From assembly GCA_017621225.1 (NCBI GenBank), contig JAGATN010000009.1, positions 51,897-115,896 of the forward strand: 64,000 nt of DNA. The letters run 5' to 3'. Origin of the DNA: Muribaculaceae bacterium (lineage in GTDB: Bacteria; Bacteroidota; Bacteroidia; Bacteroidales; Muribaculaceae). The stretch's first letter is position 1; each line of letters begins with the position of its first letter. Below, one piece after another: positions 2,781 to 43,411 of the stretch. Both the position numbers and the translations under genes were made by a program. The notes beneath the pieces are model-generated. The model saw only the letters and a list, made by a program, of their open reading frames with translations, did not search any database and was not told where the DNA came from.

Positions 2781-4106
2781 TTAAAGATTAAATTCGAGTA
2801 TGTACACCGGTTGGGGCGCGGAATCGAGTCGCTTCTCTCCGTCGCCCTGTATGGTTGGCTGAACGAATATGTGGAGCTTGCGCGCCGTTCGCCACAAGTC
2901 GTTGTCGAACGTAGGTTCCCAGGCCGGAACTTCGAAGTCGGTGAGATGCATCGTCTTCCAGTGGTCCGACTCGGCCCCTTTCGATGTGTAGAGTAGCGTC
3001 ACCCGGCTGCCCGACTCGGCGTCGCGGGTAAGGTAATATACTTTTTTCCCGTCGATGACCATTCGGGGTCGAGCTATCGGAATCATTTTTGTGCCTCCCC
3101 CTTTCAACGAAAAAGGCGTGGTGCGGTTCGAGAGCTGTTTCTGATGCCAGGCGTTGTCCTTGTGCCATACTATGCGATATTGCGGGATGTCGCTGTCACT
3201 GTCGCGCCAATACGACGCTATGTATGGATTGCCGTCGCTGTCGGCGCTCATGCTCGTTTGGTTTATCAACTCGGAGTTTTGCGGTATCTTTACGGCGTAC
3301 TCGGCGTTTGCGGCCGTGATGGGCAGCTCGTAGGGTGTTCCGTCCGATTTTTCCCAAGTCTTGCCGTTGTCGGTCGATCGGGCATAGCAAATGTCGTGGT
3401 TGGTTTCGACGAGCCACGATTCACGCCACACCCATGAAATGTGTATCGTGCCCTTTGCGTCAACGAATATCTGCCAGTATGCGTTGCGTTGGTTTTCGCC
3501 GTCAATCAGATTGCTGTGTATGCTCTCCCACTTCTTGCCTTGTGTGTCGTAGCGTTTCAGCACCAGGTTGCCCCTTCCCGATGCTCCCGAACGGTATGCA
3601 AACATCAGGCTGCCGTCGGCCAGATTGTAAAACTCGGGATAAGTTACGTCGTCTTCGTTCTCGCCGGTCATGGGCTGAAGGTCGCCGAGGGCCAATGATT
3701 CGGGGCTGACGCTTCGGCAGTATTTCAGCTTGTGCCCGTGATGGTCGAAGGCCACGTGTAGGTAGCCGTCGCCGTCTACGGCTATGCTTATCACGTTGTG
3801 CGCATCGGCGGCATTGCCTTTGTATTGGCTGCGCGATATCTGCCATTTGTCGCTTCCGAGTGTGCGCGATGCCAGCGTGAGGTAGCTGTCGGAGTCGTAG
3901 AACGCCACGTATTGCTTGTTGCCGCGTGACGCCACGGAGTTGGCACGAAATATGGCGGTGTTGACCGACGTGCCTCCGAATCCGCTGTCAGACACTTTTA
4001 CGAGTCGGCTTTTGAAGGCTTGTGCCGGTAGAATCGATATTATTATTGTCAGGCACGCCATGACCCATCGCGATGGCGTATTGGTGAATGCTGTGTTTGA
4101 ATTCAT
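2781..4106 (-). CDS. BNR-4 family seven-bladed propeller enzyme (GH145/PL24/PL25-like)
   Basis: A 441-residue secreted protein that begins with a signal peptide (MACLTIIISILPAQA). The ATG at 4106 is preferred because the upstream codons (to 4172) precede the signal sequence and look non-coding. The body fits the BNR_4 family: VAFYDSDSYLTLASRTLG, AADAHNVISIAVDGDGYLHVAFDHHGHKLKY and DVTYPEFYNLADGSLMFAYRSG are typical blades. Known members include the GH145 rhamnosyl-glucuronate alpha-L-rhamnosidases and the PL24/PL25 ulvan lyases; which chemistry applies here cannot be decided by eye. It is the first gene of a leftward pair with the GH43-GH51 fusion and is divergent from the HTCS. A -7-like box TAACTTTG (4127-4134, minus strand) lies upstream, without a good -33 box. 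Confidence 0.72.
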   Translation of the reverse strand: MNSNTAFTNTPSRWVMACLTIIISILPAQAFKSRLVKVSDSGFGGTSVNTAIFRANSVASRGNKQYVAFYDSDSYLTLASRTLGSDKWQISRSQYKGNAADAHNVISIAVDGDGYLHVAFDHHGHKLKYCRSVSPESLALGDLQPMTGENEDDVTYPEFYNLADGSLMFAYRSGASGRGNLVLKRYDTQGKKWESIHSNLIDGENQRNAYWQIFVDAKGTIHISWVWRESWLVETNHDICYARSTDNGKTWEKSDGTPYELPITAANAEYAVKIPQNSELINQTSMSADSDGNPYIASYWRDSDSDIPQYRIVWHKDNAWHQKQLSNRTTPFSLKGGGTKMIPIARPRMVIDGKKVYYLTRDAESGSRVTLLYTSKGAESDHWKTMHLTDFEVPAWEPTFDNDLWRTARKLHIFVQPTIQGDGEKRLDSAPQPVYILEFNL

Positions 4107-4310
4107 GATATGACTGTAATATGTTGCAAAGTTAAAAAATGAGGCGTTATTTATGGTACGTTGATGTCTCAAAAAGGTGTTTTAATCGTTCAAAAATCCA
4201 TAAAAAGCATCTTATGGTAGTGACAATGTGAAAAAATTCGACCAATAAGAATGTGTTATTGACTGAAAATTATTAATTTTACGTGACAAAGAGATAATTC
4301 ATTCGATATC
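4107..4310. promoter_or_regulatory. Divergent control region between the BNR-4 and HTCS genes
   Basis: An AT-rich 204-bp intergenic region separating leftward glycan hydrolases from the rightward HTCS. A minus-strand TAACTTTG (4127-4134) matches the Bacteroidota -7 consensus TAnnTTTG. No convincing -33 element pairs with it, as is common at activator-dependent glycan-locus promoters. No confident plus-strand promoter is visible. Confidence 0.35.
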
Positions 4311-13587: not shown

Positions 13588-13604
13588 CATCAACGTTCAT
13601 AATA

Positions 13605-13641
13605 CAAAAAATCCGGGCGAATCATCTCGTCCGGATTTTTT
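13605..13641 (+). terminator. Rho-independent terminator after araB
   Basis: A 10-bp stem ATCCGGGCGA / TCGTCCGGAT with one G-U pair and a 6-nt loop, preceded by A-rich and followed by T-rich tracts. It lies 18 bp after the kinase stop codon and separates the arabinose unit from the uronate operon. Confidence 0.85.
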
Positions 13642-13965
13642 GTGATGCTTTGTCGAGCATCATTCATTACATCCATGTCCCTAAACAATCCATAAAAACC
13701 TATGCAACACTAAACCTATTATTAGAGAATCATAAAGTGAATTTCTATGCTGCAAAATTAATCGTAATTCACAACAACGTGGTCTGACGATGAATCAAAT
13801 AGTTCAAAAAATCATTCAAAATATTATTTTTGTAGGCTAAAACGGCCTCAAGCCGTCGTTTTGACCCATGTTGAAACATTATCGAACTTAAATGATACAA
13901 AACGAAACCACAACTTCAATGCCTGCAGGTAACTTTGTATTAGAATAAATAAACCATCATTATCC
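13642..13965. promoter_or_regulatory. Control region upstream of the uronate operon
   Basis: An AT-rich region without a gene. Two -7-like boxes are visible: TATTTTTG (13825-13832) and TAACTTTG (13930-13937), the latter 28 bp before the start codon. Neither has a well-placed TTTG -33 box. Two direct TTCAAAA repeats 12 bp apart (13803 and 13815) precede the first box. A short hairpin with arms ACGGC/GCCGT lies at about 13840-13860. The arrangement suggests an activator-dependent promoter; the regulator is not identifiable here. Confidence 0.4.
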
Positions 13966-16290
13966 ATGAACACAAAATTTAGAATTCGTGCCATGATGCT
14001 CGTTTCGTTGCTTTTAGTGGCAATGACGGGTTTCGCAGAATCTCAAAACGAAAAAGAAGCAAAAAAAGTAAGAGAAATCATCGACAAGGTAAACGTGGCC
14101 TGGCAGAGCAGCCATAGCCCGGAGGACACGCCGTTTTGGCATAATGCCGCATATCATACGGGCAATATGGAGGCCTATTTCCTTACCGGAAACGAAGCTT
14201 ACAGGGATTATTCGGAAGCGTGGGCCGAACACAATCAGTGGAAAGGCGCTAAGAGCAATGATCGCAAAAACTGGAAATACAATTACGGTGAAACGGACGA
14301 ACATGTGCTTTTCGGCGACTGGCAGATATGTTTCCAGACCTATGCCGATTTGTATAACCTCTTGCCCGACGATCGAAGGATACGTCGTGCAAAAGAGGTG
14401 ATGGAATATGAAATGTCGACTCCGGCCAACGACTATTGGTGGTGGGCCGACGGCTTGTATATGGTAATGCCGGTAATGACGAAGATGTATCGCATTACCG
14501 ATAATAAGAAGTATCTCGATAAGTTGTACGAGTATGTGTTGTACAGCGACAGCATAATGTTTGACAAGGACGAGAATCTGTATTATCGCGATGCGAAGTA
14601 TGTGTATCCCGCACATAAGACGGTGAACGGTAAGAAAGATTTTTGGGCACGTGGCGACGGTTGGGTATTGGCCGGCCTGGCAAAAGTGTTGAAAGATCTT
14701 CCTGCCGATTATGCTCATAGAGGATTTTTTGAGGATAAATTCAAGAAAATGGCCGATGCCGTAGTGGCATTGCAGCGCCCCGAGGGCTATTGGTCGCGTT
14801 CGATGATGGACGAGGAGTTTGCTCCCGGTTATGAAACGAGCGGCACGGCATTTTTCACGTATGGATTGCTGTGTGGTTTGAACAACGGCTACCTCGAAGG
14901 CGATGCATACCGCGATGCCGCATTGAAGGGTTGGAACTATCTTAGCAAGGTGGCCTTGCAGAAAAACGGCAAGGTTGGATACGTTCAGCCAATTGGCGAG
15001 AAAGCCATTCCGGGTCAGGTGGTGGATGCAAACTCAACCGCCGATTTCGGAGTTGGTGCCTTTTTGCTTGCGGCTTGCGAATATGTGAGATATCTCGAGC
15101 ACGCTGATAACCCCGATCGTGCTTATTGGTGCGATTTGGCTTACAAGATGGCATACCCCGTATTGAGCAATATGGCCGAGGGCAATTTGCAGAAAAATAT
15201 GCTCGTCGAAGTAAGCCCCAACTGGGATGGCCGTAGCAAGAAGGTGACTTATATGGAAACGTTCGGTCGTCTGATGGCCGGAATCGCTCCGTGGCTGTCG
15301 CTCCCAGACGACGACACTGCTGAAGGAAAGCAGCGCAAGGAATTGCGCGAAATGGCTCTTAAGAGCTATAAGAATGCCGTCGATCCGTCAAGCCCCGACT
15401 ATCTCGCGTGGCGTGGTCACGGACAGGCTTTGGTCGATGCCGCTTACGTGGCCGAAAGTTTCTTGCGCGCATACGATGCATTGTGGGTGCCGCTTGACGA
15501 TGTGACGAAACAACGTTATTTCGAAGAATTCACGCAGCTGCGTCGCGTAGATCCCCCTTATACCAACTGGCTTCTGTTTTCGTCGGTGATCGAAAGCTTT
15601 ATGGCAAAAGCCGGCGCTGAATACGACGAATATCGCATAAATTCGGCCATACGAAAGGTAGAGGAGTGGTACACCGGCGACGGTTGGTATGCCGACGGCC
15701 CTGAATTTGCTTTCGATTATTACAGCAGCTACGTGTTCCACCCCATGTATCTCGAAACGCTTGCTGCCATGAAAGATGCAAAAGCTTACACGCGCATACA
15801 TTATCCCCGTTACTACGACAGGGCGTTGCGTCGCACTCAGAAATACGGAATAGTTTTGGAACGACTCATTTCGCCCGAAGGTACATTCCCGGTATTCGGC
15901 CGATCGATACCGTATCGCATGGCCACCATGCAGCCGCTGGCTCTGTTGGCATGGTATGGAAAACTGCCTGCTGGACTCACCAACGGTCAAGTGCGCGCCG
16001 CGCTCACTGCCGTGATGCATAATATGTTTGACGGCAAGGACAATTTCAACGAAGCGGGCTTCTTGACCATAGGTTTTGCGGGCCGTCAGCCTAACATAGC
16101 CGATTGGTACACCAACAATGGCAGCCTCTATATGACGTCGCTTGCCTTTATGCCTCTCGGATTGCCGGCGTCGCATCCGTTCTGGACCGACGGCGCGCTC
16201 CCCTGGACCGGTAAGCGCGCGTGGAGCGGCAAGCCGTTCCCCAAGGATCATCATTGGGGCGATACCGAACGATATAAAGATCTCTTTTAA
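13966..16290 (+). CDS. GH105 unsaturated uronyl hydrolase fused to GH154 (DUF2264)
   Basis: A 774-residue secreted two-domain enzyme; residues 1-24 are a signal peptide. Residues about 30-380 are a GH105/GH88-type (alpha/alpha)6 barrel with WWWADGLYM (catalytic Asp162) and WARGDGW (227-233). Such enzymes remove the 4,5-unsaturated uronic acid left by polysaccharide lyases. Residues about 383-765 match DUF2264, now GH154, a family with a characterised beta-glucuronidase from arabinogalactan degradation (motifs AWRGHGQALVDAAYVAESFLRA, YGIVLERLISPEGTFPVFGRS). Joining both lets one protein release saturated and unsaturated uronates. It opens a seven-gene operon for unsaturated uronate breakdown. 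Each domain looks intact. Confidence 0.85.
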   Translation: MNTKFRIRAMMLVSLLLVAMTGFAESQNEKEAKKVREIIDKVNVAWQSSHSPEDTPFWHNAAYHTGNMEAYFLTGNEAYRDYSEAWAEHNQWKGAKSNDRKNWKYNYGETDEHVLFGDWQICFQTYADLYNLLPDDRRIRRAKEVMEYEMSTPANDYWWWADGLYMVMPVMTKMYRITDNKKYLDKLYEYVLYSDSIMFDKDENLYYRDAKYVYPAHKTVNGKKDFWARGDGWVLAGLAKVLKDLPADYAHRGFFEDKFKKMADAVVALQRPEGYWSRSMMDEEFAPGYETSGTAFFTYGLLCGLNNGYLEGDAYRDAALKGWNYLSKVALQKNGKVGYVQPIGEKAIPGQVVDANSTADFGVGAFLLAACEYVRYLEHADNPDRAYWCDLAYKMAYPVLSNMAEGNLQKNMLVEVSPNWDGRSKKVTYMETFGRLMAGIAPWLSLPDDDTAEGKQRKELREMALKSYKNAVDPSSPDYLAWRGHGQALVDAAYVAESFLRAYDALWVPLDDVTKQRYFEEFTQLRRVDPPYTNWLLFSSVIESFMAKAGAEYDEYRINSAIRKVEEWYTGDGWYADGPEFAFDYYSSYVFHPMYLETLAAMKDAKAYTRIHYPRYYDRALRRTQKYGIVLERLISPEGTFPVFGRSIPYRMATMQPLALLAWYGKLPAGLTNGQVRAALTAVMHNMFDGKDNFNEAGFLTIGFAGRQPNIADWYTNNGSLYMTSLAFMPLGLPASHPFWTDGALPWTGKRAWSGKPFPKDHHWGDTERYKDLF

Positions 16291-16316
16291 TAAAACATAA
16301 GTATATACATCATATT

Positions 16317-17129
16317 ATGACGAACGATAATTTGTTGAAATCGTTTTCTCTCGAAGGGAAAGTGGCATTGGTGACCGGAGCCGCGTATGGCATTGGCCTT
16401 GCCATTGCACAGGCATTGGCCGAAGCCGGTGCGAAGATAGTGTATAACTGCTCTCGTCAAGAAACCCTTGACCGTGGTGCCGAAGCTTACAGGCAATGCG
16501 GAATAGACGCCAAAGGCTATCTGTGCGACGTAACCGACGAAACAGCCGTAAAAGCAATGGTGGCCGACATCGAAAGCACCGTGGGAACCATCGATATCCT
16601 TGTCAACAATGCAGGCATAATAAAGCGCATACCAATGGAGGAAATGTCGAGCGACGATTTCCGCCGGGTAGTCGACGTTGACCTGATAGGCCCGTTCATC
16701 TGCTCGAAGGCCGTGATACCCGGAATGATCAAGAAGGGGCACGGAAAGATAATAAACATATGTTCGATGATGAGCGAACTCGGACGCGAAACCGTTTCGG
16801 CTTATGCGGCGGCAAAGGGCGGCCTGAAGATGCTTACGCGCAACATTGCCTCGGAGTATGGCGAATACAACATTCAGTGCAACGGAATAGGCCCGGGATA
16901 CATCGCTACCGAGCAGACCGCGCCGCTGCGCGAGCGTCAGCCCGACGGAAGCCGTCACCCGTTCGACGCTTTCATAATATCGAAGACTCCCGCTGCGCGC
17001 TGGGGCACTCCCGACGATTTGAAGGGCCCGGCTCTGTTTCTTGCATCGGATGCAAGCAATTTCGTGAACGGCCACATACTGTATGTGGATGGTGGCATAT
17101 TGGCTTACATTGGTAAGCAACCAAAATGA
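16317..17129 (+). CDS. Short-chain dehydrogenase, probable KduD-type (2-deoxy-D-gluconate 3-dehydrogenase / gluconate 5-dehydrogenase family)
   Basis: Cytoplasmic NAD(P)-dependent SDR of 270 residues. The TGAAYGIG cofactor motif starts at residue 20, NNAG is at about 97-100, and the catalytic Ser150, Tyr163 and Lys167 (SAYAAAKGG) are present. In the unsaturated-uronate pathway an SDR reduces 3-deoxy-2,5-diketo-hexonate (DKII) to 2-keto-3-deoxygluconate. KduI, KdgK and KDPG aldolase in the same operon make that reaction the likely one. Sequence alone would also allow a gluconate 5-dehydrogenase. No signal peptide is seen. It lies 26 bp after the GH105-GH154 gene. Confidence 0.85.
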   Translation: MTNDNLLKSFSLEGKVALVTGAAYGIGLAIAQALAEAGAKIVYNCSRQETLDRGAEAYRQCGIDAKGYLCDVTDETAVKAMVADIESTVGTIDILVNNAGIIKRIPMEEMSSDDFRRVVDVDLIGPFICSKAVIPGMIKKGHGKIINICSMMSELGRETVSAYAAAKGGLKMLTRNIASEYGEYNIQCNGIGPGYIATEQTAPLRERQPDGSRHPFDAFIISKTPAARWGTPDDLKGPALFLASDASNFVNGHILYVDGGILAYIGKQPK

Positions 17130-17148
17130 CAAAATGATTTTTAGATAA

Positions 17149-18258
17149 ATGAAATTATTTACGATTGCTGCAACGGCGCTGGCACTGGCATCATGTTCGT
17201 CGGGCGTCGACATACGCCTTACGAATGAATTGCCGGTGGCACGTTGTGGCGAAATGGTTGAAGTAGTCCTCCCGGAATCGGTCGACAAGCCGTTTGTGTT
17301 GGTCGACCCTTCGGGTAATGAAGTGGCTTATCAGATTACGCATGACGGCACGATGGTGTTTGAGGCTGACGTTCCGGCCGATACCTCGGTGGTGTATGTG
17401 ATAAAAAACGGCACGCCGTCCGAGGTTGACACCGTTGCTTACGGTCGACTGTTTGCCGAGCGTCTCGACGATTTGGCCTGGGAGAACGACAAGGCCGCAT
17501 ACAGGGCATACGGCCCCGCGTTGCAGGCTACGGGCGAAAGGGCTTATGGCTACGACGTGTGGACGAAGTCGACACCGAAGCCGGTTCTCGAAAAAAGGTA
17601 TTATGGCGAAAAGGTGCAGGGCGTTTCATATCATGAGGACCATGGCGAAGGCATGGATGCCTATGGTGTGGGCCCCACGCTCGGAGGCGGCACGGCTGCT
17701 CTGCTCCATGCCGACGGAAATTTGCGGTACCCCGAATGCTTCACTTCGTACGAAGTGCTCGATAACGGCCCGCTGAGATTTTCGGCAAAACTGGTGTATG
17801 ACAGCGATACGGTGGTGGAGACTCGCGTCATAACGCTTGACAAAGGGTCGTTTCTCAACCGTACTTCGGTGACATTCGATTCGGTTTGCGGCACCGACAT
17901 AGCTCCAGGCATAGTGGTGCACGCGGCAGCTCCCGACGATTACGTGCTGGCCGATGCGTATATGGCCTACGCCGATCCGACGCAAAATGCCAATAATGGA
18001 AACGGTCGGATATATGTGGGCGTAGTGGTGCCCGGCGATTCGACCCGTTACGAGTACAGGGCGCTTGAACAGCCCGTCGGCGACGCGGTGGGGCACCTGT
18101 TGGGCGTTACGCCTTACAAGGCCAACGATGAGTTCGTGTATTACTGGGGCTCGGGATGGAGTAAGGGCTATATGCCATCGATGGATGAATGGAAGGCGTA
18201 TCTTGCCGATTTCGCAGTGAAAATAGAATCGCCCATAAAGGTTGAAATAGAACGATGA
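17149..18258 (+). CDS. DUF4861 family lipoprotein
   Basis: A 369-residue protein with a lipoprotein signal (MKLFTIAATALALASC), so it is probably anchored in the outer membrane or periplasm. The body matches DUF4861, a family frequently encoded beside GH88/GH105 genes: EKRYYGEKVQGVSYHEDHGE, GMDAYGVGPTLGGGTAALL and FVYYWGSGWSKG are typical. The many conserved aromatic and acidic residues and the galactose-mutarotase-like beta-sandwich character suggest a carbohydrate-active role, but I do not know a proven function. It lies 19 bp after the SDR and only 3 bp before the EIIC gene, in the middle of a uronate operon. Confidence 0.75.
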   Translation: MKLFTIAATALALASCSSGVDIRLTNELPVARCGEMVEVVLPESVDKPFVLVDPSGNEVAYQITHDGTMVFEADVPADTSVVYVIKNGTPSEVDTVAYGRLFAERLDDLAWENDKAAYRAYGPALQATGERAYGYDVWTKSTPKPVLEKRYYGEKVQGVSYHEDHGEGMDAYGVGPTLGGGTAALLHADGNLRYPECFTSYEVLDNGPLRFSAKLVYDSDTVVETRVITLDKGSFLNRTSVTFDSVCGTDIAPGIVVHAAAPDDYVLADAYMAYADPTQNANNGNGRIYVGVVVPGDSTRYEYRALEQPVGDAVGHLLGVTPYKANDEFVYYWGSGWSKGYMPSMDEWKAYLADFAVKIESPIKVEIER

Positions 18259-18261
18259 GCC

Positions 18262-19683
18262 ATGGAAGAAGCATTTAAATACATAATAGGGCTTGGCGCA
18301 GCCGTAATGATGCCGATAATCTTCACCATATTGGGGTTGTGCATAGGCATAAAATTCGGCGATGCGTTGAAGTCGGGGCTCCGCGTGGGCGTAGGTTTCG
18401 TGGGGTTGTCGGTGATTACGGCGTTGCTTACGTCGAGTCTTGGCCCGGCTCTCGATACGGTGGTGAATCTGTATGATTTGCAGCTGCACGTGTTCGACAT
18501 GGGTTGGCCGGCCGCCGCTGCCGTGGCATACAATACGGCCGTTGGCGCTCTTATAATACCGGTGTGTCTGTGCGTCAATCTGGTGATGCTGTTTACGAAG
18601 GCTACGCGAACCGTCAACATCGACCTATGGAATTACTGGCATTTCGCATTCATAGGTGGCGTCATATATTTTGCGTCCGACTCGCTTGCGTGGGGATTTT
18701 TCGGCGCAATAATATGTTACGTGCTGACCTTGATACTTGCCGATATGACGGCTAAGAAATTTCAGGATTTTTACGATAATATGGACGGAATATCCATACC
18801 GCAACCGTTTTGTGCCGGATTTGCGCCCTTCGCATACATCATAAACCGTGGTTTGGACTGCATTCCCGGAATGAAGCGTCTGAACATCGATGCCGAGGGC
18901 ATGAAGAATCGTTTCGGCATACTTGGCGAACCGTTGTTTCTTGGCGTGATAGTGGGCGTGGGCATCGGATGCCTTACCTGCAGCACGTGGAGTGAAATGG
19001 TCGACAACATACCCTCCATTCTTGGCCTCGGCATAAAAATGGGAGCCGTTATGGAGCTGATACCGCGAGTTACGGTGCTGTTCATCGAAGGCTTGAAGCC
19101 CATCAGCGATGCCACCCGTTCGCTCATAGCCCGTAAGTTCAAGGGGGCCGAAGGTCTCAACATAGGTATGAGCCCGGCTCTCGTCATAGGGCATCCCACC
19201 ACGCTCGTGGTTTCGTTATTGCTCATTCCGGTGACGTTGCTGCTGGCAGTGTTGCTCCCGGGCAATCAGTTCCTGCCGCTTGCGTCGCTTGCCGGCATGT
19301 TCTACGTGTTTCCCCTTGTGCTTCCGTTTACCAATGGAAACGTGGTAAAGACATTCGTGGTAGGTTTGATAATGATGACCTTGGGCTTGTATCTCGTTAC
19401 CGACCTCGCTCCCTGGTTCACGCTTGCCGCCAAAGATGTTTATGCCGCCACGGGCGACAGCGCGGTAGCGATACCCGAAGGATTCGAGGGCGGAAGCCTT
19501 GACTTTGCGTCGAGTCCGCTTGCCTGGATCATATTCAAATGCACCCATGCCTTCAAATGGATAGGTGCGGGCGTGCTCGTGCTGCTCACCATGGGTCTCG
19601 TATGGTGGAACCGCGTTCTCATAATCCGTAATCAGAAGGATATGGCGCGCGACGGGTCGACTCGCCTCGAGGATATGGAATAA
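18262..19683 (+). CDS. Orphan galactitol-type PTS EIIC membrane protein
   Basis: A 473-residue integral membrane protein with about 10-11 hydrophobic helices. It resembles the GatC/galactitol-family EIIC permeases of the phosphotransferase system: MPIIFTILGLCIGIKFGDALKSGLRVGVGFVGL at the N-terminus (residues 16-48 in part), RFGILGEPLFLGVIVGVG in the middle, and NGNVVKTFVVG near the end. No EIIA, EIIB, HPr or EI gene lies anywhere in the window, and Bacteroidales generally lack sugar PTS. In this operon it most likely imports a uronate or its keto isomer without phosphorylation, since a dedicated kinase (KdgK) follows downstream. The transported sugar and energetics are inference. Confidence 0.8.
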   Translation: MEEAFKYIIGLGAAVMMPIIFTILGLCIGIKFGDALKSGLRVGVGFVGLSVITALLTSSLGPALDTVVNLYDLQLHVFDMGWPAAAAVAYNTAVGALIIPVCLCVNLVMLFTKATRTVNIDLWNYWHFAFIGGVIYFASDSLAWGFFGAIICYVLTLILADMTAKKFQDFYDNMDGISIPQPFCAGFAPFAYIINRGLDCIPGMKRLNIDAEGMKNRFGILGEPLFLGVIVGVGIGCLTCSTWSEMVDNIPSILGLGIKMGAVMELIPRVTVLFIEGLKPISDATRSLIARKFKGAEGLNIGMSPALVIGHPTTLVVSLLLIPVTLLLAVLLPGNQFLPLASLAGMFYVFPLVLPFTNGNVVKTFVVGLIMMTLGLYLVTDLAPWFTLAAKDVYAATGDSAVAIPEGFEGGSLDFASSPLAWIIFKCTHAFKWIGAGVLVLLTMGLVWWNRVLIIRNQKDMARDGSTRLEDME

Positions 19684-19698
19684 TGAAAAAAACATTGT

Positions 19699-19734
19699 GA
19701 TTTAAAGCATAATAAAGATTTAAAGCATAATAAA
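19699..19734 (+). repeat. Perfect 18-bp tandem duplication
   Basis: GATTTAAAGCATAATAAA occurs twice head to tail (19699-19716, 19717-19734) in the 59-bp gap between the EIIC and kdgK genes, ending 8 bp before the kdgK start. It lies where the ribosome-binding region would be, so copy number could alter kdgK translation. Confidence 0.95.
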
Positions 19735-19742
19735 CTTGTATA

Positions 19743-20765
19743 ATGAGTAAGATAGTTACATTCGGCGAAATAATGCTCAGGCTTTCGCCCGAAGGTTGCA
19801 GCCGATTCGTTCAGGTCGATTCGTTCGATGCCATATGGGGCGGCGGCGAGGCTAATGTGGCGGTAAGTTGTGCCAACTATGGCCATGACGCATGTTTCGT
19901 AACAAAGCTCCCGACGCATGAAATAGGACAGGCGGCGCTTAATGCGCTTCGTAGATATGGAGTTGACACTACCCACATAGCCCGAGGCGGAAACAGAGTT
20001 GGCATATATTATTGCGAGACGGGTGCTTCGATGCGGCCGTCGAAGGTCATTTATGACCGTGCCGGTTCGTCAATAGCCGAGGCCGATGCTTCCGATTTTG
20101 ACTTCGATGCCATAATGGAGGGCGCTACTTGGTTTCATTGGAGCGGGATAACTCCGGCTATCAGTGACAAGGCGGCCGAACTCACGCGTTTGGCCTGTGA
20201 AGCCGCCAAACGCCACGGCGTGACGGTGTCGGTCGATCTCAATTTCCGCAAAAAGTTGTGGACAAAAGAGAAAGCGCAGTCGGTGATGCGTCCGCTCATG
20301 CAATATGTCGATGTATGCATAGGCAATGAGGAAGATGCCGAATTGTGCCTCGGATTCAAGCCTGATGCCGACGTGGAAGGGGGCGTGACCGATGCCGAAG
20401 GCTACAAGTCGATATTCGCTCAAATGGCCGATACGTTTGGATTTAAATATGTAGTGTCGACGTTGCGCGAATCGTATTCGGCTACGCACAACGGCTGGAA
20501 AGCTATGATTTACGATGGTAAGAACTTCTACGAGTCAAAACGTTACGACATAAATCCGATAATCGACCGCGTAGGTGGCGGCGATGCTTTCTCGGGAGGC
20601 ATAATCCATGGATTGCTGACGAAGCCCAATCAGGCCGAAGCGCTTGAATTTGCCGTGGCAGCCTCGGCGTTAAAGCACACCATACCCGGCGATTTCAACA
20701 TGGTGAGCGCCGACGAGGTGGAAGCGTTGGCCAAAGGCAATGCCAACGGACGAGTTCAACGTTGA
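19743..20765 (+). CDS. kdgK: 2-keto-3-deoxygluconate kinase
   Basis: Cytoplasmic PfkB-family sugar kinase of 340 residues that phosphorylates 2-keto-3-deoxygluconate to KDPG. The N-terminal TFGEIMLRLSPEG and FDAIWGGGEANVAVS match KdgK-like kinases, and the second PfkB signature DRVGGGDAFSGG puts the catalytic base at Asp281. It is placed between the permease and the KDPG aldolase, as expected for sequential steps. An 18-bp tandem repeat precedes it. Confidence 0.93.
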   Translation: MSKIVTFGEIMLRLSPEGCSRFVQVDSFDAIWGGGEANVAVSCANYGHDACFVTKLPTHEIGQAALNALRRYGVDTTHIARGGNRVGIYYCETGASMRPSKVIYDRAGSSIAEADASDFDFDAIMEGATWFHWSGITPAISDKAAELTRLACEAAKRHGVTVSVDLNFRKKLWTKEKAQSVMRPLMQYVDVCIGNEEDAELCLGFKPDADVEGGVTDAEGYKSIFAQMADTFGFKYVVSTLRESYSATHNGWKAMIYDGKNFYESKRYDINPIIDRVGGGDAFSGGIIHGLLTKPNQAEALEFAVAASALKHTIPGDFNMVSADEVEALAKGNANGRVQR

Positions 20766-20792
20766 ATAAAAATTAAAACAACAGAAGAATCA

Positions 20793-21461
20793 ATGGCTCG
20801 ATTTGATAAATTGGCGGTAATGAATAAAGCCGCGAGTGCGCCGATGGTGCCGGTGTTTTACCATAGTGATGCCGATACGGCCTGGAATGTGGTGAAAGCT
20901 TGCTACGACGGCGGCGTAAGATTGTTTGAGTTCACTAATCGTGGCGATTTTGCCCATGAAGTGTTTGCCCAATTGGTTAAGTTTGCGGCCAAGGAGTGCC
21001 CCGACATGGCCATAGGCGTGGGGTCGGTGGTAGAGCCTGCTACGGCTGCTCTTTACATTCAGATGGGTGCTTGCTTCGTGGTGGGGCCGCTGTTTAATGC
21101 CGAGGTGGCCAAGCTGTGCAATCGTCGAGGCGTTCCGTACATACCGGGATGCGGATCGGTGTCGGAGGTAGGTATGGCTCAGGAAGCGGGATGCGACATC
21201 TGCAAAGTGTTTCCGGGCGACGTACTCGGACCGAAATTCGTCAAAGGATTGCTGGCTCCTATGCCGTGGTCGAAGATTATGGTAACGGGAGGCGTTGAGC
21301 CTACGGCCGAAAATCTGTCGGGATGGTTCGGTGCCGGAGCATTCTGCGTGGGCATGGGCTCGAAGCTGTTTCCGAAAGACCGCGTGGCCGACGGCGACTG
21401 GGCGTACGTGACCGGCAAATGCCGCGAATCGCTTGACTGCATATTGAAAATTAAAAAATAA
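20793..21461 (+). CDS. eda: KDPG / 4-hydroxy-2-oxoglutarate aldolase
   Basis: Class I aldolase of 222 residues that cleaves 2-keto-3-deoxy-6-phosphogluconate to pyruvate and glyceraldehyde 3-phosphate. The Schiff-base lysine is Lys138 in DICKVFPGD, with Glu46 in RLFEFTNRG. IAIGVGSV-like AIGVGSVVEP and YIPGCGSVSE motifs are present. It follows kdgK by 27 bp and is followed by kduI after 12 bp, finishing the route to central metabolism. Confidence 0.94.
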   Translation: MARFDKLAVMNKAASAPMVPVFYHSDADTAWNVVKACYDGGVRLFEFTNRGDFAHEVFAQLVKFAAKECPDMAIGVGSVVEPATAALYIQMGACFVVGPLFNAEVAKLCNRRGVPYIPGCGSVSEVGMAQEAGCDICKVFPGDVLGPKFVKGLLAPMPWSKIMVTGGVEPTAENLSGWFGAGAFCVGMGSKLFPKDRVADGDWAYVTGKCRESLDCILKIKK

Positions 21462-21473
21462 AAATAGAGATAT

Positions 21474-22397
21474 ATGAAAAAAACATTGTTATCATTGTGT
21501 ACGGTTGTGCTCGCAGGGCTTGGAGTTACGGCTCAGACCAACTATTCCATCCTTCGTGCCTGCCACCCCGACGACTTCAAGAAGTACGACACTTCACAGC
21601 TTCGTTCGCATTTCATGATGCCCGAAGTAATGAAAGCCGACGAATTCAACTTCACCTATTCGATGTACGATCGCTTGATATTCGGCGGCGTGGTTCCGGT
21701 AAATAAGGTCATGACCCTTGAAACCATCGACCCGTTGAAAGCCGAATATTTCTTGGAACGTCGTGAGCTGGGCGTCATCAACACCGGCGGCGACGGTATT
21801 GTGAGCGTTGACGGCAAGGATTATGAATTGCATTTCTCGGATGCAATATATGTAGGTCGTGGCAACAAGGTGGTTACGTTTCGTAGCAAGGATGCCTCGA
21901 ATCCGGCAAAATTTTACATCAACTCAGCTCCCGCCCACAAGGCTTATAAAACGCAGCTCGTATCGATAGACGGCCGCAAGGGTACGTTGAAGGCCAACTC
22001 GTTCCCCGCAGGCGCCATGACCGAGAGCAACGACCGCGTAGTCAATCAGCTCATTGTGGCTAATGTTCTGTCGGAGGGCCCCTGTCAGCTTCAGATGGGG
22101 CTTACGGAGTTGAAGCCGGGAAGCGTGTGGAACACCATGCCGGCTCATACGCACGACCGCCGCGTGGAGGCTTACTATTATTTCAACGTTCCCGAAGGTA
22201 ATGCCATATGCCACCTGATGGGGCAGCCGCAGGAAACGCGCCTGATATGGCTGCACAACGAGCAGGCCGTGATGTCGCCCGAATGGTCGATTCACGCGGC
22301 AGCAGGCACGAGCAACTACATGTTCATATGGGGTATGGCCGGCGAAAATCTCGACTATGGCGATATGGACAAGGTGACGTATCAGGAAATGCGTTAA
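21474..22397 (+). CDS. kduI: KduI isomerase with an N-terminal signal peptide
   Basis: 4-deoxy-L-threo-5-hexosulose-uronate ketol-isomerase, 307 residues. The zinc-binding cluster of the family is intact: [15 protein letters not shown] gives His225, His227 and Glu232. The family normally starts near [19 protein letters not shown]; here it is preceded by [20 protein letters not shown], a typical Sec signal peptide with a VTA cleavage motif at residues 18-20. No later in-frame ATG could give a complete cytoplasmic protein (the next Met is in the conserved core), so export looks genuine. It is the last gene of the uronate operon. The stop is 8 bp from the convergent PBP1A stop. Confidence 0.9.
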
Positions 22398-42159: not shown

Positions 42160-43368
42160 TCAGGCCATAATCATGGTTACCAGTACGTACATGGCGTGAG
42201 CCACTATTGCGGCAGCAATGCCGCCTATGGTATGAGCGAGTATGGCTTTCGGAGTAAGTTCGCGATATCCGAGCGAATCGAGCATGGCGGTATGCGTGCT
42301 CAAGTATCCGCTCCAGCACATTCCGATGGCGGTGAACACTGCAATGGCGTTGCCGTCAATCCATCCCTGCGTAATGAAGTTGGGCACGAGCGACAAGGCT
42401 GCTCCTACGGCTCCGAGCGCGGTTATGGGGAACGCTACGAGGTGCGGATCATGGAATCCGAAAAGCCAATCGAATACGAAGTTGACTTTTTGTGCCAGCC
42501 AAGGCAGTACCTCGATGCCTTCGTATGCTGCACCGGTATATTCGCCGGTCGACGAAGCGCCGAATGTCAGTATCATGACGAGCGTAGATATTATGAGTAC
42601 GCCGGGGATGATGGCTATGCCTACGTCGACGCCGGTGCGTCCGCCGTCGAGCAGAGAGTTGAGCGTTCTAATGAAAAGCGACTTCGACTCTACCTTTTCG
42701 TCCTTCATCTCTACTTTCGAATCGTTGTCGAGTACGCCCTCCTCGAGGAACTTCGGATAAGCTTTTATGACGAACGACTGCATGAGGCGCGTTGATACGA
42801 TGCATCCGCAGAATGCACCGAAAAATCCTATCAGCGGTGCAAGGAAGTAGCCCTGACCCACCATGAACACTATTACGAGAAGACCCATGCCAAATGCCGT
42901 GCCGAAGTTGGTGAGCGATATGAATTGGAACTTCTTGAAGTAAGAGCTGAATCGCTTATCCTGCGAGAGCGATATGATGGCGGGATTGTCGCTGAGGAAA
43001 GTCATCACGGCGCCCAAAGCGGCAACTCCGGGCAGATTGAACAGCGGGCGCATGAGCGGGCGCAGCAATCGTTCGAGCAACTTTACCACTCCAAATTCAA
43101 CGAAAAGACGGCCGATGGCACCGGTCACCACGCATATGCCCATAAGATAAAACACCGTGTTGAGCAGCAGGTCGTGCGCGGTGTGCATTATGGTGTTGAG
43201 CATATTGGGCACACCCATTATCGACCCTATGTAGTAAAATAAGGCAAACACGATAACCAGACAGGGGATGCCTGACGGTATGTAGCGTGATATGCTGAAT
43301 TTTTTAGCAGCCGTCGACTTCATTTCGATGGCTTCTGATTCATGTTCGTTTTCGATTTGTTGGTTCAT
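42160..43368 (-). CDS. Gate/nucleoside-recognition domain membrane protein (YjiH-like)
   Basis: An integral inner-membrane protein of 402 residues with about 8-10 helices. It belongs to the Gate (nucleoside recognition) family: LPGVAALGAVMTFLSDNPAIISLSQDKRF and FGTAFGMGLLVIVFM are characteristic. A cytosolic loop of about 35 residues (KVEMKDEKVESK) splits the two membrane halves. The transported substrate is not known in this family. It lies 43 bp upstream of, but is transcribed in the same direction as, a porin gene that precedes it. Confidence 0.8.
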   Translation of the reverse strand: MNQQIENEHESEAIEMKSTAAKKFSISRYIPSGIPCLVIVFALFYYIGSIMGVPNMLNTIMHTAHDLLLNTVFYLMGICVVTGAIGRLFVEFGVVKLLERLLRPLMRPLFNLPGVAALGAVMTFLSDNPAIISLSQDKRFSSYFKKFQFISLTNFGTAFGMGLLVIVFMVGQGYFLAPLIGFFGAFCGCIVSTRLMQSFVIKAYPKFLEEGVLDNDSKVEMKDEKVESKSLFIRTLNSLLDGGRTGVDVGIAIIPGVLIISTLVMILTFGASSTGEYTGAAYEGIEVLPWLAQKVNFVFDWLFGFHDPHLVAFPITALGAVGAALSLVPNFITQGWIDGNAIAVFTAIGMCWSGYLSTHTAMLDSLGYRELTPKAILAHTIGGIAAAIVAHAMYVLVTMIMA

Positions 43369-43411
43369 ACGTTTTTAGATAAGGATTGTTTATGGCATTA
43401 GTTTGTTTTTA

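Follow-up and report, generated by a model that had tools for sequence, protein, structure and literature searches.

The classical route for unsaturated uronates, known from E. coli and Dickeya, consists of KduI, KduD, KdgK, and Eda. In Dickeya, deoxy-keto uronate intermediates are imported by the permease KdgT, which belongs to a family unrelated to EIIC-GAT. The locus described here lies in a stretch of 64,000 nt from a Muribaculaceae bacterium (contig JAGATN010000009.1; hereafter the window, in whose numbering all positions are given), where seven genes on the + strand at 13966-22397, separated by gaps of 26, 19, 3, 59, 27, and 12 bp, include a KduI with a signal peptide and an orphan EIIC permease. 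In comparison with the classical route (E. coli kduI/kduD, L197; Dickeya), the enzyme families and, by family, the reactions are the same, and the motif HTHxRRxE...WSIH is kept. The isomerase, however, is predicted to be exported, whereas E. coli KduI and 66 of the 67 Bacteroidales KduIs without an EIIC beside them start directly at the core. Hybrid kduI-dhuD clusters of Bacteroidota likewise combine KduI with a DhuD-like reductase (PMC12838403), and the terms "signal peptide", "EIIC", and "galactitol" do not occur in the main text of that paper. As for the permease, it shares its family with the EIIC of the galactitol phosphotransferase system (PTS; PDB 9u82), but falls below the cut-off of the galactitol model TIGR00827, and EIIB, HPr, and EI were not found in the eight genomes carrying it (EIIA was not searched for). 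A described case of similar transport is xylose uptake by GalABC in E. coli ptsI mutants, which lack EI: according to the available text of PMC10989795, an EIIC-GAT protein moves the sugar without phosphorylation. That activity, however, was uncovered by laboratory evolution with the EIIA and EIIB genes present, while here no PTS partners were found.

The best explanation of the locus, with a probability of about 0.72, appears to be isomerisation in the periplasm by the exported KduI, import of the product by the EIIC without phosphorylation, and breakdown in the cytoplasm. Hydrolases of the GH105/GH88 type would release a 4,5-unsaturated uronate in the periplasm, where it would open to the 5-keto aldehyde DKI (DHU) and be converted by the exported KduI to the 2,5-diketo acid DKII. 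The EIIC would carry DKII over the inner membrane by facilitated or ion-coupled transport, and the short-chain dehydrogenase/reductase (SDR), KdgK, and Eda would convert it in the cytoplasm to pyruvate and glyceraldehyde 3-phosphate. The observed basis of this scheme is the gene content, the signal peptide, the exclusive pairing with the EIIC, and the lack of detected PTS partners. Since the reductase, kinase, and aldolase have no signal peptide and the intact isomerase would be exported, the product of the isomerase has to pass the inner membrane. The EIIC is the membrane protein in or beside the operon in all eight sampled cases, which makes DKII import by it the best explanation. Enzyme location, order of steps, transported compound, and energy coupling we infer from these data. 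Why isomerisation should come first is a matter of speculation; perhaps the 5-keto aldehyde, being reactive, makes a poorer or less safe cargo than a 2-keto acid. With somewhat less confidence, we consider it fairly probable that this is a widespread route of gut bacteria, in which the first isomerisation is extracytoplasmic, a former PTS membrane domain, now without any phosphotransfer partner, has become a permease dedicated to a 2,5-diketo sugar acid, and the genes are co-selected as a unit.

Signal peptides were called without SignalP, by inspection and by a simple rule that asks for a positive start, a hydrophobic core, and small terminal residues. According to this rule, KduI, the GH105-GH154 hydrolase, and the DUF4861 protein of the window are exported, and the SDR, EIIC, KdgK, and Eda are not. 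KduI carries 20 residues ahead of the start of its match to the closest solved relative and scores 390.4 bits against NF002091 (cut-off 250). The claim of an earlier model-generated note made from the letters alone (the sequence-only reading), that a KduI with a signal peptide is encoded here, is confirmed; the protein is full-length and its predicted signal peptide is of the Sec type. In alignment with E. coli KduI the window protein shows HTHDRRVE and WSIH, whose conserved residues we take to be the metal ligands; HTHxRRxE and WSxH are likewise conserved among the aligned exported KduIs. An exported and a cytoplasmic KduI occur together in two sampled genomes (G182 and G078). Their exported copies are intact; the cytoplasmic copies (L102 and L105) have lost the first His, and L105 is also without the Glu and the last His. 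These ligand-losing paralogues (L102:8611-9468 and L105:5597-6442) may have a different activity; they adjoin an SDR and a DUF4861 gene. In the remaining six sampled genomes with an EIIC (completeness 86-99%) the exported KduI is the sole KduI found by a search confined to KduI homologues, which would miss an unrelated isomerase of the DhuI type. The exported copy therefore looks, as far as sequences can tell, like the working KduI. No dhuD-dhuI cluster is reported for Bacteroidota in the abstract of PMC12838403. PDB entry 9kd0 equals the exported KduI of B. xylanisolvens XB1A over 287 of 287 residues and begins at the predicted cleavage point, which shows that others have already handled an exported KduI.

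The main sample comprised 295 Bacteroidales genomes, drawn without regard to either trait. KduI is matched in 73 of them, in 72 over the cut-off, and 75 of the 76 over-cut-off places were examined (74 stretches and the window); the place in G233 and three sub-cut-off fragments were left out of the counts. At 8 of the 75 loci an EIIC is present in the stretch, and KduI has a signal peptide at all eight. The remaining 67 loci have no EIIC beside KduI, and no signal peptide is seen in 65 of them by the rule and in one more (L106) by eye; the N-terminus of L100 is unreadable, which leaves 66 readable loci. The reverse search recovers EIIC-GAT in 8 of the 295 genomes. These are the same eight, with the two genes side by side, on which grounds chance co-occurrence was set aside. 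Fisher's test (8 vs 66) gives 7e-11, a value that relatedness makes too small to be taken literally. In a phylum sample of 395 genomes, EIIC-GAT exceeds the cut-off in three, all among the eight, with a fourth weak match below it, and KduI exceeds its cut-off in 98. No signal peptide was seen at 20 further KduI N-termini from this sample (20 new of the 98 genomes), which include every previously unread over-cut-off KduI with a frame of at least 294 aa.

In the other direction, from EIIC to KduI only, a wider set was obtained by scanning genome contigs with the eight EIICs and keeping the best 80 of at least 535 relatives, of which at least two (L110 and L169) belong to the sampled genomes G025 and G258. 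This set includes P. vulgatus ATCC 8482, B. xylanisolvens XB1A, B. faecis, B. finegoldii, B. heparinolyticus, and Heminiphilus faecis. A KduI is found in the stretch at 74 of the 80 loci, and the copy nearest the EIIC has a signal peptide (72 by the rule; L132 and L172 by eye). The three proteins judged by eye in the two sets (L106, L132, and L172) are those on which the rule or the anchor pattern failed, and the kduI of L152, which is split into two frames, was counted by its first piece. Five of the other six genomes have a signal-peptide KduI elsewhere, bringing the total to 79 of 80. Among these, L177 has no kduI within 10 kb of the EIIC, yet the KduI elsewhere in its genome carries the signal peptide; at the four others the contig ends near the EIIC, so linkage is unreadable there. 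The pairing is nearly exceptionless among the genomes examined. Whether signal-peptide KduI always co-occurs with the EIIC gene had been proposed as a check in the sequence-only reading, and the counts (8/8 vs 0/66 readable loci, and 79/80 EIIC-locus genomes) answer in its favour.

The description of the permease as an EIIC, made from the letters alone, is borne out by PF03611 (EIIC-GAT; 258.9 bits, cut-off 24.2). It belongs to the same family as PDB 9u82 over 433 residues (E 2e-83), and scores 390.9 bits against TIGR00827, where 542.2 are required. Among the eight EIICs column identity averages 73%, and they match 9u82 over most of their length. HPr, EIIB, and EI were each found in none of the eight EIIC genomes (86-99% complete, with positive controls in named genomes); phosphotransfer by the EIIC is unlikely because these three went undetected in all eight, which also supports the suggested "PTS-independent" uptake. 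KdgT was considered as the permease and rejected: in 13 genomes only partial matches were seen, in six of the genomes, one of them (G025) barely exceeding the cut-off with 28.5 bits against 25 and covering positions 170-297 of 305.

Several observations weigh against the proposed route, beginning with a possible other permease. An ExuT-like gene of the major facilitator superfamily (MFS; D-galactonate/hexuronate type) stands directly behind kduI at 25 of the 80 EIIC loci and could encode a DKII or galacturonate permease. Relatives of it occur in the stretches of 17 of the 67 KduI loci without EIIC, and MFS proteins matching TIGR00893 below its cut-off are present in 13 of 13 genomes checked, the window's included. 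The remark that no permease beyond the EIIC can be seen is thus correct within the operon, but not for all of its relatives. It is conceivable, though unlikely, that the pair acts on unsaturated uronates, the MFS protein imports DKII, and the EIIC carries another product of the same enzymes, for example saturated galacturonate or glucuronate. However, among the 80 EIIC loci, 54 others show no relative of this MFS gene in the stretches fetched (some stretches being short), and in the sample it is found at one of seven fetched EIIC loci, vs eight of eight for the EIIC beside exported KduI. The window itself has only two open reading frames with at least five predicted hydrophobic helices, the EIIC and one at 42163-43374, 20 kb away. 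Since homogalacturonan is expected to yield galacturonate in saturated as well as unsaturated form, a division of labour is likely, in which the MFS protein would serve saturated galacturonate and the EIIC would serve DKII.

Two readings that change the role of KduI are far less probable. E. coli KduI has a reported side activity on hexuronates, and the exported enzyme might isomerise ordinary galacturonate or glucuronate to tagaturonate or fructuronate in the periplasm, with the EIIC importing the ketouronate. This is very improbable: the reductase, KDG (2-keto-3-deoxygluconate) kinase, and KDPG (2-keto-3-deoxy-6-phosphogluconate) aldolase of the string, together with the GH105 enzyme, fit the DKII route, and no gene of the uxaB/uxuB type appeared in Pfam scans of the seven genes and seven neighbours, a dedicated search not having been made. 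Least credible is that the N-terminal extension exports KduI little or not at all, and that the two genes are linked merely by descent as one mobile cassette, as the probable single origin of exported KduI would allow. Across diverged sequences in 79 of 80 genomes, however, the extension keeps its positive start, hydrophobic core, and small end residues. It is also retained at L177, away from the EIIC, and the crystallised construct (9kd0) starts right after it.

The remaining points against periplasmic isomerisation with EIIC import concern the evidence and its exceptions. Localisation of KduI and transport by the EIIC are predicted from sequence, and the signal peptides themselves are putative calls of a simple rule and of the eye. 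In four KduIs counted as unexported (L033, L053, L066, and L095) the core is preceded by a hydrophobic stretch, yet without a start and cleavage pattern that satisfies the rule. The Fisher value overstates the independence of the genomes. One EIIC genome (G685, locus L121) has no KduI that could be found; at L121:6348-9015 an ExuT-like MFS gene and, by eye, a mannonate-dehydratase-like gene stand divergent beside the EIIC. The genome of L148 has, besides the exported copy next to the EIIC, an unexported KduI of the exported clade (L148:16204-17151, - strand), which is outside the 79/80 count and appears to have lost its signal peptide after duplication. According to a careful tree of 39 rows, chosen by the author of the analysis, 13 exported KduIs and this second copy fall on one side of a branch with support 92/84. 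Exported KduIs may therefore be a single clade, with the pairing resting on one or two origins plus linkage. A quick tree of 90 rows places two exported KduIs (L034 and L035) apart on an unresolved backbone; the two separate signal-peptide origins hinted at by it are not claimed, as the 39-row tree joins the exported KduIs. The EIIC and KduI trees are partly congruent, with several groups in common; the KduI tree joins L103 and L104 as sisters (100), but the EIIC tree does not. Exported and unexported forms both occur, in different genomes, within families f41, f59, and f111, and within the single genera g62 and g114 (one genus each in f59 and f111). These mixtures argue for repeated replacement of one form by the other, through transfer or loss.

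As for the substrate, many EIIC-KduI loci combine the pair with the reductase, kinase, aldolase, and DUF4861 genes, and some also with GH105-GH154. Genes for a GH88/105 hydrolase and pectin esterases are oriented divergently to the pair in B. faecis, P. vulgatus, and B. xylanisolvens. In B. xylanisolvens XB1A these are GH105, CE8, and CE12-CE8 genes, as listed in the main text of PMC4769552 for the pectin-induced homogalacturonan polysaccharide utilisation locus (PUL) 49. Judged by the genes present, and not by locus tags, the pair appears to border PUL 49. The remaining genes of that locus (susCD, PL1, and HTCS) were not identified in the XB1A stretch, where the next gene encodes an AAA_14 protein. 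The words isomerase, galactitol, and PTS do not occur in the main text of PMC4769552. Overall, the genomic context points to unsaturated uronates as the substrate.

An isomerase, a reductase, a KDG kinase, and a KDPG aldolase are all present together in the string, as a catabolic operon for unsaturated uronates would have them. The aldolase scores 361.9 bits against NF005499 (cut-off 275). The kinase scores 105.5 bits against the PfkB Pfam model (cut-off 25.8), and 532 bits against its best NCBIfam model, NF041633, below the 700-bit cut-off; its naming as a KDG kinase rests on family and context, as it reaches the cut-off of no equivalog model for KDG kinases. Regarding the SDR, called KduD-like in the sequence-only reading, the family stands but the KduD assignment does not: with 492.8 bits (cut-off 369), PRK07097 "gluconate 5-dehydrogenase" is the best model and easily outscores the KduD models NF005390 (245.4 bits, cut-off 369) and TIGR01832 (234 bits, cut-off 338.85), both of which stay below their cut-offs. 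The SDR may be the DhuD-type reductase described from Bacteroidota in PMC12838403. A reductase of 551 aa that seemed exported (L110:8286-9938 and L097:6520-8172, Heminiphilus faecis contig) was rejected as a periplasmic reductase. It is a chimeric frame, with an exported N-terminus resembling, by eye, a beta-helix hydrolase and a C-terminal SDR whose cofactor-binding start is missing, and represents a deletion, a fusion, or an assembly artefact. The DUF4861 protein exceeds the cut-off of the BT3233-family model NF058564 (349.5 bits vs 320). It has no solved relative by sequence, no paper on it was found in the literature searched, and it is a candidate for an extra pathway step. At many loci DUF4861 accompanies KduI of both the exported and the unexported type.

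The module varies a known pathway, and the pairing of isomerase and EIIC appears to be undescribed. No description of it was found in the literature searched, which includes the available texts of PMC12838403, PMC12269599, PMC3878776, PMC4769552, PMC11036162, PMC7953866, and PMC10989795, and does not cover most subscription journals or supplements. The main text of PMC3878776, on the KdgR regulon of B. thetaiotaomicron, describes a uronate regulon with some periplasmic or extracellular gene products, and the available text of its reconstruction names no transporter for the entry of unsaturated uronates. The terms "kduI" and "PTS" do not occur in the main text; the supplements, where an earlier mention of the pair is possible, lay outside the check. 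In our judgement, the step by which unsaturated uronate ends of pectin or glycosaminoglycan fragments enter over the inner membrane looks like a gap in the glycan pathways of Bacteroides-type gut bacteria, which are well mapped otherwise. Both genes of the pair are ready for knock-out in culturable species, among them P. vulgatus ATCC 8482 (pair at L147:9782-12367) and B. xylanisolvens XB1A (L187:10001-12395). If the proposed route is true, nature would provide an example of an EIIC that functions independently of the PTS, from which one could learn how such transporters move cargo without phosphorylation.

The features of the region are collected in Table 1. Seven genes in one direction with gaps of 3-59 bp had been read from the letters, and a check of frames and gaps reproduced every position. 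The DUF2264 domain of the hydrolase is, as we understand the family name, GH154. The window's genome has one KduI and one EIIC-GAT gene.

Table 1. Positions of the gene string and of the hairpin preceding it in the window.
Feature	Position	Strand	Basis or remark
Terminator-like hairpin between araDAB genes and gene string	13603..13644	+	Consensus match only; number in region not above shuffles
Exported GH105-GH154 two-domain hydrolase	13966..16290	+	GH88/105 domain 35-376, DUF2264 384-747; export predicted by signal-peptide rule
SDR reductase, PRK07097 family, without signal peptide	16317..17129	+	Expected reaction DKII -> KDG
DUF4861 (BT3233-family) lipoprotein	17149..18258	+	Pfam/NCBIfam; lipobox LASC read by eye
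Orphan EIIC-GAT permease, ~9 hydrophobic helices	18262..19683	+	Proposed importer of isomerised uronate (DKII)
KDG kinase, PfkB family	19743..20765	+	Family models
KDPG/KHG (2-keto-4-hydroxyglutarate) aldolase	20793..21461	+	Family models
KduI, Sec-type signal peptide at residues 1-20, metal-site residues kept	21474..22397	+	NF002091, alignment, rule

Upstream of the string lie genes for a hybrid two-component regulator and a GH43 protein, followed by araD, araA, and araB (araD and araB by domain and position). The seven genes are set apart from the arabinose genes by a gap of 378 bp and by the hairpin behind araB, which has 18 pairs and is the longest of the 13 found (12.5 expected from shuffles). 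A Bacteroides promoter pattern has no match in the upstream region of the operon. Near the regulator and GH43 genes, a BNR_4 family protein is encoded at 2784-4172 on the - strand. Among the wider EIIC loci, three metagenome-assembled genomes named Paenibacillus, Clostridiales, and Lachnoclostridium (L115, L127, and L161) carry versions of the module close to that of the window and are probably misnamed or mixed bins.

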